Made by a program: the position numbers and the translations under genes. DNA of 34,108 bases from an uncultured Sulfolobales archaeon (GTDB lineage Archaea > Thermoproteota > Thermoprotei_A > Sulfolobales > NBVN01), in assembly GCA_938083005.1 (NCBI GenBank), contig CALKCU010000027.1, forward strand, positions 1 to 34,108. Reading direction: 5' to 3'. Positions 6,343-32,835 of this stretch are shown one piece after another. How positions within the stretch are numbered: position 1 is the first letter of the stretch; each line of letters begins with the position of its first letter. The notes under the pieces were generated by a model. The model saw nothing but the letters and a program-made list of their open reading frames with translations, was not told the origin of the DNA and searched no databases.

Positions 6343-8211
6343 CTATCCCAGCTTTTCGAGGAAGTCCTTCGGATACGCTTCGATGGACTTGAACCAGGAG
6401 ACCAGCAGCTTCATCCTCTCGCGCTCATCCTGAGGTAGGTGCAGCGGTCTACCCCTCGCGTCGATCACTATGCCCACGACTCCTCCCCGCACTCTCCTCC
6501 TAACCCTCTTGCCGAAGCCCAGTCCGAAGTCGAACTTCCTGGTGGGCTCGACCGTCACCGTCACCTCCTTGTGCTGGGAGACCGGGAGCTTCACGAGGCT
6601 CCCGAAAGCCACCTCCACGTTGTCTCTCTCGCTTTCCGAGTACTCCACCGTCACGTCCGCCACCTTCTCTCCCGGAGTCCCGATGCCCGCTGCCGCGATC
6701 AGAGTGCCGAGGGGCACTAGGCACTCCTTCTCGAATATCTCGAGGGCCACGTCTCTGTATATCTTCGAGAGCACTCCGAGGTGGGGTATCATGAACACGC
6801 TGTCCTGCATTATGTACGTGAGGCCTATTGGCTGAAACGCGTCCGCCAGTATGATCATGGACTGGGCCCTCCTGGGAGCCCTGGAGAGGAGGCCTCCGGT
6901 CCCCACTATGTAGTCCACCCTCCTCATGTCTATGTACGTCTCCTCGGCCTTCACCTCCTCGAATATGTCCGATATCGTCCTCTCCTTCTTCACACCCTTG
7001 AGCTCCCTGGCCAGGTACTTGTGGTGGTTGAAGGCCATCCTTATGCTCTCCCGGGCTACCGCGTGCTCTACCACGAGGTCTTTCAGGGTCATCGGTATCG
7101 TCGTGGGCCTTATCATCTTGTTGTATATGATGCCCATGAGCTCGTCGTCGGTGATCTCGAACGGTATCCACCTCTTGACGTTCTCCGTCCCGGCCTCCTT
7201 CAGCACGTTGCCTATGCTGTAGCTCATCCCGAGGTTCGCGCTCACCGTCCTCAGGAACCTCCCGTCGAACACGGAGTAAACGTTCGTCGTAGCACCCCCC
7301 ATGCCTACCCCGATGACGTTGACCCCCCTCATCTCAGCGAACGTCCTCACCATGAGCCCCTCGGCGGCCGGCGTCGGCATTATGTCCGTGGAGGTGAGCT
7401 TCATCAGCTTCTCGTAGCCGGGCGCGTGGGCCATCACGTGCTCCATGAAGAGCTCGAGGATGGCGTTCCTCGCGGGCTCGACCCTCTCGACCTCTATCTG
7501 AGGCCTTATGTTGTCGACCACCCTGATATCGAAGAAGTCCCCGGGCAGTATCCTCTTCACGTCCTCTCTCGCGTCCCTGTTCCCGGCATAGACTACGGGC
7601 AACCTGAAGGAGATCCCGAACCTAGGCCTGGGCTTCGCGACGGCTATGACCTCGGCCATCTCGAGGACGTGGGTCTTGTCTCCCCCGTCCGTCCCCCCGG
7701 CCAGCAGGACCATGTCGGGCCTCAGGAACCTCAGCGTGTTCACCTTCTCGTGAACCTCCCTGCCGTCGTCCACGGAGAGGACGTCCATGACTACGGCCCC
7801 GGCACCCAGGGCGGCTCTCTGCGCGCTCTCGGCGGTGATGCTCTTGACGACCCCGGCTACGAGCATCTGGAGGCCTCCACCCGCACTGCTGGTGGACACG
7901 TAGACGTCTATCCCTGTCTTGCCACCGAGGTAGGGCATGATGAACCCCAGCTCCTCCGATGAGTCGTCGATTATCTTGTGTCCGGTCAGCTCCTCCACCT
8001 CCCTTACGGCGTTCCTGACCCCCTTGGTGACGTCCTCCACTGGCTTCTCGACGGTCGTGGGCGCCTCGCCGCTCGCTAGGAACTTCCACTCGTCGCCCAC
8101 CTTGCCGAAGAACCTCGCCTTGGTCGTGGTGCTCCCCACGTCGGTCGCGAGTATGAACCTGGGCTCCCTGGCGACCATCCCCATGCCTTGCGCCGACCGT
8201 ATCCTACTCAT
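6343..8211 (-). CDS. MutL/GlmL-like ASKHA ATPase, no mutase nearby
   Basis: This 622-aa frame belongs to the MutL/GlmL family, named after an accessory protein of B12-dependent glutamate mutase and built on the ASKHA (actin/Hsp70) ATPase fold. The phosphate-1 loop DVGSTTTK is at residues 24-31. EAPTTVEKPVEDVTKGVRNA and the STSSAGGG motif follow, then GVGMGGATTNVYSV as the second phosphate-binding loop, and a late VGTGGLLS segment. No glutamate mutase subunit (GlmS/GlmE) or other B12 enzyme is in the window, so a role as mutase activase is doubtful here. The neighbours are the barrel protein downstream and the membrane-protein operon upstream. Start choice: ATG 8211 opens the frame, but a TATA-like GGTTTATTTTTC at about 8214-8227 lies very close to it, so ATG 8184 or 8178 may be the true start. 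The spacer upstream carries a guide RNA gene. Confidence 0.85.
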   Translation of the reverse strand: MSRIRSAQGMGMVAREPRFILATDVGSTTTKARFFGKVGDEWKFLASGEAPTTVEKPVEDVTKGVRNAVREVEELTGHKIIDDSSEELGFIMPYLGGKTGIDVYVSTSSAGGGLQMLVAGVVKSITAESAQRAALGAGAVVMDVLSVDDGREVHEKVNTLRFLRPDMVLLAGGTDGGDKTHVLEMAEVIAVAKPRPRFGISFRLPVVYAGNRDAREDVKRILPGDFFDIRVVDNIRPQIEVERVEPARNAILELFMEHVMAHAPGYEKLMKLTSTDIMPTPAAEGLMVRTFAEMRGVNVIGVGMGGATTNVYSVFDGRFLRTVSANLGMSYSIGNVLKEAGTENVKRWIPFEITDDELMGIIYNKMIRPTTIPMTLKDLVVEHAVARESIRMAFNHHKYLARELKGVKKERTISDIFEEVKAEETYIDMRRVDYIVGTGGLLSRAPRRAQSMIILADAFQPIGLTYIMQDSVFMIPHLGVLSKIYRDVALEIFEKECLVPLGTLIAAAGIGTPGEKVADVTVEYSESERDNVEVAFGSLVKLPVSQHKEVTVTVEPTRKFDFGLGFGKRVRRRVRGGVVGIVIDARGRPLHLPQDERERMKLLVSWFKSIEAYPKDFLEKLG

Positions 8212-8304
8212 GCTGAAAAATAAACCTACCAGGTCACCTATGGCCCCAGGCTCCTCGGGTCGAACCGAGCGGTAGCCCGCCGGGCGCTGAGAAGTCGAGC
8301 GAAG

Positions 8305-8364
8305 AAGGGATCAGTGCTACAGTGGTTCATCAACATCAGGCCGCCCGTCGTTCGCATCATCCGA
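8305..8364 (-). ncRNA. C/D-box guide sRNA, predicted 16S rRNA 2'-O-methylation guide
   Basis: The minus strand shows the full box set of an archaeal C/D sRNA: C box ATGATGC (8354-8360, one mismatch to RTGATGA), D' box CTGA (8336-8339), C' box TTGATGA (8327-8333) and D box CTGA (8311-8314). The C-to-D' guide (8340-8353) is complementary over at least 10 contiguous bases to the near-universal 16S segment CCGCCCGTCG. Counting five bases upstream of D', it would direct methylation to the C equivalent to E. coli C1402 in the decoding site. The second guide (8315-8326) is complementary to the 16S GCTACA region near position 1235, with one mismatch to the usual sequence. A TATA box at 8383-8393 lies about 25 bp upstream of the predicted 5' end. 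The ends are approximate. L7Ae, Nop5 and fibrillarin would be the expected partners. Confidence 0.85.
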
Positions 8365-8382
8365 GAAGTAGGAGCGCGAGAG

Positions 8383-8393
8383 CTAATATATCG
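8383..8393 (-). promoter_or_regulatory. TATA box of the C/D sRNA gene
   Basis: CGATATATTAG on the minus strand, centred about 25-28 bp upstream of the C box. This suggests the RNA is made from its own promoter rather than by read-through from the membrane-protein operon. The rest of the 8212-8539 spacer shows no coding region; it is GC-rich and holds only weak inverted repeats. Confidence 0.65.
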
Positions 8394-8539
8394 TCGCAAC
8401 ACCGCCCGCGCGGCAACTCTGTTCTCACCCGCGTGACTCATCGCACTGGAGAGCGAGAGCCCCCAGAGCCTCGCAGCTCACTCCGAGAGAAGTTCCGCGA
8501 TGCGGGAAGCCCGGTGAAAGCGCGCTCTGCGGGGAGGCT

Positions 8540-32251: not shown

Positions 32252-32336
32252 GCCGCCGTAGCTCAGCCCGGGAGAGCGCCCGGCTGAAGGCCCCCCGGAG
32301 ACCGGGGTGTCGGGGGTTCAAATCCCCCCGGCGGCA
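32252..32336 (+). tRNA. tRNA-Phe(GAA) with 11-nt intron
   Basis: Acceptor GCCGCCG/CGGCGGC, D arm GCTCAGCCCGGGAGAGC, anticodon stem CCCGG (32279-32283) pairing with CCGGG (32302-32306), T arm GGGGG-TTCAAAT-CCCCC, discriminator A (32336). The loop is CTGAAG plus 11 extra bases (32290-32300) and then A38, so an 11-nt intron sits at position 37/38. CCA is not encoded. The methyltransferase reading frame on the opposite strand runs across this gene. Confidence 0.95.
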
Positions 32337-32835
32337 CTCTCTTCCTGAGAACGCACAGCACCTCGAGCCTACCGACGTATCCGAGGTTCTCGAACCCCTC
32401 GGGACACCTCGCTCCCTCCCCCGCGCACATGACGGTGACCGCGGCCTCCTCCAGGACCTCCGTACCGATCCTCTCCAGGACTGGTCGGACGTCCCCGTAG
32501 TCGCAGGCGTAGAGAGTGAACGCGTAGAGGTGCGTGAACCCCGCTCCCTCCCTCAGGGGAGGGAGGTCTGCGTCGGCTGCCACCACCTCGACGATCCCGG
32601 AGGCTCTATGCTTGAGCCTCAGTACCCTCAGGGACTCGGAGCTTACGTCTAGCCCTACGTAGATCTCGGGCTCCGCTCCGAGGACCTCGCGGAGGTAGTC
32701 GTAGAGGAGGCCGACGCCGCAGCCTACGTCTAGGACCCTCCCGGGCTTGGTCCTCACGGCCGCCGCGTACTTGGCTCGCTGCTCGCCACCGTAGAGCTCC
32801 TCGTAGGACCCGACTATGGTGTCGTAGTACTCCAT
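32263..32835 (-). CDS. Class I SAM methyltransferase, 3' end antisense to tRNA-Phe
   Basis: About 190 residues from ATG 32835 (MEYYDTIVGSYEELYGGEQ); the frame opens at 32907 but the earlier part is low-quality. SAM motif I is VLDVGCGVG, motif II ends in VGLDVSSESL, motif III-IV covers AADADLPPL and THLYAFTLYAC. The substrate is unknown; small-molecule or tRNA/protein methylation is possible. The C-terminus (RKRVPPGGFEPPTPRSPGG) is encoded antisense to the tRNA-Phe gene, and the stop lies inside it. The core fold ends at about RLEVLCVLRK, so the last 25 residues are probably an appendage. Confidence 0.8.
   Translation of the reverse strand: MEYYDTIVGSYEELYGGEQRAKYAAAVRTKPGRVLDVGCGVGLLYDYLREVLGAEPEIYVGLDVSSESLRVLRLKHRASGIVEVVAADADLPPLREGAGFTHLYAFTLYACDYGDVRPVLERIGTEVLEEAAVTVMCAGEGARCPEGFENLGYVGRLEVLCVLRKRVPPGGFEPPTPRSPGGLQPGALPG

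Follow-up and report, generated by a model that had tools for sequence, protein, structure and literature searches.

A candidate double-guide C/D-box sRNA in Sulfolobales with predicted targets at the 16S C1402 equivalent and the wobble base of pre-tRNA-Cys

A conserved C/D-box sRNA gene and its surroundings

Does the short minus-strand segment at 8305–8364 encode a C/D-box guide RNA and, if so, which nucleotides do its two guides address? The window, i.e. the whole stretch of 34,108 nucleotides analysed here, comprises positions 1–34108 of contig C27 of the host genome (G000), an archaeal assembly of 1.33 Mb in 70 contigs that is 83% complete. In an earlier note, made from the sequence alone, the segment was read as a C/D-box guide RNA whose D′ arm is aimed at the equivalent of E. 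coli 16S C1402 and whose second guide fits 16S rRNA near 1235. The minus-strand boxes C, D′, C′ and D are found in the order and spacing claimed there, exact to the base, and a TATA box is present at the proposed distance (Table 1). Furthermore, a TATTA-type element occurs at the equivalent upstream place of the sRNA locus in six congeners. Inverted flanks beside boxes C and D, which might form a terminal stem, are seen in several relatives, for example G199 (TGGCC/GGCCA) and G013 (GGGCT/AGCCC), and are weak in the host species.

Table 1. Features of the sRNA locus and of the proposed tRNA target
Feature	Position	Strand	Remarks
C/D-box sRNA gene	8307..8364	-	from sequence and homologues; estimated transcript ~55–58 nt, ends placed from the boxes
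Candidate TATA box TATATTA	8384..8390	-	30 nt upstream of box C
Box C ATGATGC	8354..8360	-	6/7 to RUGAUGA
D′ guide GAACGACGGGCGGC, 14 nt	8340..8353	-	positions 2–11 = 8341–8350, opposite 16S CCGCCCGTCG
D′-guide position 5	8344	-	opposite C1402 equivalent
Box D′ CTGA	8336..8339	-	from sequence
Box C′ TTGATGA	8327..8333	-	6/7 to RUGAUGA
D guide ACCACTGTAGCA, 12 nt	8315..8326	-	positions 2–11 = 8316–8325, opposite pre-tRNA-Cys GCTGCAG|TGG
D-guide position 5 (U)	8319	-	opposite wobble G34
Box D CTGA	8311..8314	-	from sequence
MutL/GlmL-family gene	6343..8211	-	PF13941, 400.5 bits; context, outside the sRNA
Target tRNA-Cys(GCA) gene	G000:C15:41496-41583 (L189 197-284)		outside the window, on contig C15

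The genes for fibrillarin (337.6 bits) and Nop5 (252.1 bits) are adjacent on contig C15 of the host genome, and to our knowledge L7Ae is universal in archaea. The locus resembles known archaeal box C/D sRNAs in its four boxes, its two guides within the 10–14 nt range (14 nt for D′ and 12 nt for D), the +5 geometry and the accompanying fibrillarin and Nop5 genes (PMC4644070, PMC7994747).

Homologues of the sRNA were found in 24 of the 31 family genomes, 20 by a DNA search with 108 bases and four by a pattern of box C plus the D′ guide. In these homologues the boxes and both guides are kept and the flanks have diverged; by eye, the alignment shows that the length of the D′–C′ spacer and both flanks vary. 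With flanks and spacer length this variable among relatives, a coding reading of the small same-strand ORF at 8238–8441 is unsupported. Across the order, the pattern of box C and D′ guide matched 25 of 214 genomes, compared with none for the reversed control, while the pattern of C′ and D guide gave 36 matches against one in the control. When 84,980 species were scanned, matches turned up in 63 records, of which 24 were archaeal, and the bacterial matches were taken as chance background. No sR family of Rfam was found above its gathering score, the best being sR3 with 21.6 bits versus 41 (E=0.0016), and assignment to a named Rfam family was rejected, the resemblance to sR being weak.

In principle, the D′ guide and the boxes might have come together by chance, with no RNA made, which would agree with scores under the Rfam gathering thresholds. 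However, 24 of the 31 family genomes and also a second family retain the sRNA, and the reversed-pattern controls are near zero, which makes such an accident extremely improbable. At the level of sequence, the C/D-box sRNA at 8305–8364 on the minus strand is regarded as confirmed.

Regarding its surroundings, the start of the same-strand PF13941 gene lies 100 nt downstream of box D, and this order is common to five species of the genus including the host. Elsewhere in the window, the tRNA at 32252–32337 (+), whose anticodon was left unnamed by a plain ARAGORN scan, is called tRNA-Ser(GGA) with an 11-nt intron once an intron is allowed.

The D′ guide and the equivalent of 16S C1402

As the host assembly is without a 16S gene, pairing of the D′ guide was scored on the 16S of congeners (L006, L010) and other family members, which reads CACACCGCCCGTCGCTCC. 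Positions 2–11 of the guide form ten of ten Watson–Crick pairs with the 16S stretch, which corresponds to 1399–1408 in E. coli, and position 1 is unpaired. Here, C1399, C1400, G1401 and C1402 face guide positions 2–5; the numbering was fixed by A1408 after GUC and by the P. abyssi table, while one 1541-base E. coli copy reads one off. The ten Watson–Crick pairs on the congeners' 16S, measured against a threshold of at least nine including +5, and the +5 rule bear out the D′ arm directed at the C1402 equivalent as originally proposed. In G035 the 16S reads CCGCCCATCG, and a matching T is present in the guide of its congener G148, the two genomes belonging to different species. The rRNA genes of several relatives (L010, L011, L012, L140 and L141) are much longer than normal in both 16S and 23S, with a 16S of up to ~2.4 kb, and most likely carry introns.

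The C1402 equivalent is guided by U43 in human and by snR70 in yeast. Any likeness of the D′ guide to U43/snR70 follows necessarily from their common target and gives no evidence of common descent. In P. abyssi, the same base is Cm1376, which was observed by cryo-EM with support from LC-HRMS; the mark at the C1402 equivalent has been tabulated for archaea and eukaryotes (PMC7005279). The respective equivalents are yeast Cm1639, human Cm1703 and Arabidopsis Cm1645, of which Cm1645 is guided by the C/D snoRNA AtU43 (PMC11542601). The sRNA studied here shares with such C1402-guiding snoRNAs the rRNA base, the chemistry and the RNA guidance, while its second guide is different in kind (PMC11542601). 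Cm1376 of P. abyssi is likewise an archaeal 2′-O-methyl group at the same base, although in a different phylum, and the available part of that source does not name a guide RNA (PMC7005279). Because ribose methylation at the C1402 equivalent is already recorded in archaea and eukaryotes, the target of the D′ guide is an ordinary one. The earlier note had also seen a neat functional convergence with bacteria in this mark; the contrast between a protein-made mark in bacteria (RsmI/RsmH) and an RNA-guided mark elsewhere stands, but it is a known contrast and its novelty does not hold. Outside Thermoproteota, this C1402 guide was observed within a C/D-like arrangement in Candidatus Mnemosynella (Archaeoglobi; L073).

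The target of the D guide: 16S rRNA or pre-tRNA-Cys

For the second guide, a fit to 16S near 1235 with one mismatch had been proposed. The single mismatch to 16S GCTACAATGG is as described, but it is a C·A pair at position 8 that recurs in nearly every homologue, C8 being invariant among the family homologues and standing opposite an A of GCTACAATGG. In addition, position 5 is C in six genomes (G001, G009, G012, G019, G184 and G199), mismatching the supposed target A; the intron-containing tRNA-Cys suits the guide in every one of these and is a better target than this segment. With the mismatch at position 8 kept and that at position 5 in six genomes, the 16S segment near 1236 was rejected as the target, and the 23S of five relatives contained no 10/10 target of the D guide.

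The host pre-tRNA-Cys(GCA), whose 10-nt intron is inserted between nucleotides 37 and 38, has the sequence GCTGCAG|TGG at this junction and is the sole fit to the D guide among the 41 tRNA genes of the host genome, none of the others being a suitable target. All ten positions are paired, nine as Watson–Crick pairs and one as U5·G34. The guide spans tRNA-Cys nucleotides 31–37 and the first three intron bases, so that, in the manner of a pre-tRNA wobble guide, +5 falls on position 34 and the pairing runs into the intron. Over positions 2–11 in 22 genomes, tRNA-Cys gives 202 Watson–Crick pairs, 17 G·U pairs and one mismatch, compared with 185, 5 and 30, respectively, for 16S. When guides and targets were re-paired at random 20000 times, in shuffles that ignore relatedness, 202 Watson–Crick pairs were never reached.

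To follow the intron, tRNA-Cys genes were gathered from 27 family genomes. The intron starts with TGG throughout, except in G009, G012 and G019, where it starts with TGA, and exactly these three genomes have T instead of C at guide position 11. Guide and intron thus co-vary as TGG/CCA and TGA/TCA, and as AGA/TCT in another family. For G199, a member of that other family with the guide TCTCTGCAGC, an AGA intron start was predicted before look-up, and its tRNA-Cys gene indeed reads the predicted GCTGCAGAGA, with ten of ten Watson–Crick pairs. This gene was named tRNA-Leu by ARAGORN, because the program allows one intron, while its body is that of tRNA-Cys. In G184, in contrast, the predicted TGT intron start was not found; since the intron starts with TGG, position 11 is unpaired and the pairing comprises positions 2–10. 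The independent co-variation events are few, perhaps three. In a folding analysis of the anticodon arm, addressing competition between the guide and the splicing motif, tRNA-Cys performed no better than shuffled sequence. At the locus L069 of G199, with features at 1302–1411 and at about 1508 on the reverse strand, the gene for the sRNA and the two-intron tRNA-Cys gene presumed to be its target are convergent and ~100 bp apart.

Taken together, the D guide most likely addresses the wobble base of the intron-containing tRNA-Cys, and not 16S near 1235, as judged from these complementarities. It is very improbable that the guide instead directs methylation of A1236 of 16S (E. coli number) and that its fit to tRNA-Cys is fortuitous. 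Nine of ten positions do pair with 16S, U5–A is a Watson–Crick pair in 16 of 22 genomes, and the D guide of G148, from another family, pairs with 16S at positions 3–11 with no mismatch. However, C8 is kept opposite A throughout the family, guides with C5 are unable to mark that A, and the variable positions of the guide track the intron of tRNA-Cys, the 16S segment being GCTACAATGG in all genomes in which it could be located. A bispecific guide, in which U5 and C8 represent a compromise that is imperfect with both 16S near 1236 and pre-tRNA-Cys, is also improbable: U5 suits 16S best and C8 suits tRNA-Cys best, and in most of the family the guide has a perfect match to neither, but the six C5 genomes, unable to mark 16S, have kept the sRNA nonetheless.

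A single RNA carries both guides in the window's family and also, within a second family, in G034, G181, G184, G185, G187 and G199. In G051 (L233), the tRNA-Cys guide CCACTGCAGC is joined to a different D′ guide, AATGTAACCG, suggesting that guides are also exchanged between sRNAs. The D guide of G148 (L046), CCATTGTAGAG, is followed by CTAA, a degenerate D box, and fits 16S better than tRNA-Cys; this guide is possibly decaying or re-targeted.

In Haloferax, a pre-tRNA-Met guide provides C/D-guided Cm34 on an intron-containing precursor. Wobble-base methylation on an intron-containing precursor is likewise known for the C/D RNA within the pre-tRNA-Trp intron (Cm34, Um39; PMC11408192). Unlike these two guides, the candidate described here is a free-standing sRNA directed at G34 of tRNA-Cys, its pairing lies over the 5′ splice site, and it is joined to an rRNA guide. 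Nor does it reside inside the intron of its own target as in the tRNA-Trp type, the sRNA being on contig C27 and tRNA-Cys on C15. Human SNORD97/SCARNA97 on C34 of tRNA-Met(CAT) are wobble-base C/D guides too, with a different tRNA, base and domain (PMC6601510). Archaeal sRNAs that target tRNAs are described in reviews with one guide lacking a target (PMC7994747), whereas here one RNA combines guides for 16S and for a tRNA, and the combination is conserved. It has been reported that many sRNAs match tRNAs, although these matches were not compiled (PMC4644070), and that tRNA-Cys from Sulfolobales resisted isolation and was missed by mass spectrometry (PMC7668247). In the literature searched, whose scope excludes several older Sulfolobus sRNA lists and the Pyrobaculum survey, no report of Gm34 in archaeal tRNA-Cys was found.

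The U·G pair at +5 and the proposed role of the sRNA

G34 stands opposite U, as a wobble pair, in the host and 15 of the 21 other genomes, i.e. in 16 of 22. A Watson–Crick pair at +5 is regarded as necessary for methylation (PMC4644070). The main doubt about the predicted methylation of G34 therefore concerns these 16 genomes. Either U·G is tolerated at +5, or U5 guides may bind without methylating. In the latter case, the D guide of U5 species would bind pre-tRNA-Cys and delay or time its splicing, or act as a folding chaperone. The U·G pair at +5 in most of the family and the position of the pairing over the splice site speak for such a role, and the literature allows for unproductive guide–target pairs (PMC4644070); since C5 species have a canonical +5 pair, however, the form that is ancestral or sister appears to be productive, and we consider binding without methylation unlikely. 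Sister species with U·G and C–G at +5 offer a natural test of whether U·G is tolerated in methylation.

The boxes, both complementarities, the conservation, the co-variation of guide and intron, and the fibrillarin and Nop5 genes are seen directly in the sequence. They are best explained by a double-guide sRNA that probably directs Cm at the 16S C1402 equivalent through its D′ guide and Gm34 on pre-tRNA-Cys, before splicing, through its D guide. From these features we infer that the sRNA is expressed and assembled into an RNP, in which L7Ae, Nop5 and fibrillarin would bring methylation to two targets within the decoding machinery. As the 16S rRNA matures, the D′ arm would pair with its nucleotides 1399–1408 (E. 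coli numbers) and methylate the C1402 equivalent, which lies in the P site. Pre-tRNA-Cys(GCA), in turn, would be bound by the D arm prior to splicing and 2′-O-methylated at the wobble G34. Because this pairing crosses the 5′ splice site, the G34 step would have to precede splicing.

Combined, the target of one guide has been corrected, which leads to a definite prediction for tRNA-Cys, namely Gm34 set before splicing. In addition, a conserved RNA with one rRNA guide and one tRNA guide is described where reviews expect tRNA guides alone. We tentatively suggest, at somewhat less than even confidence, that this one conserved sRNA couples Cm1402 in the P site with Gm34 on the tRNA-Cys precursor, and that splicing may wait for methylation. 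If this is true, ribosome maturation and the maturation of one tRNA would share one guide.
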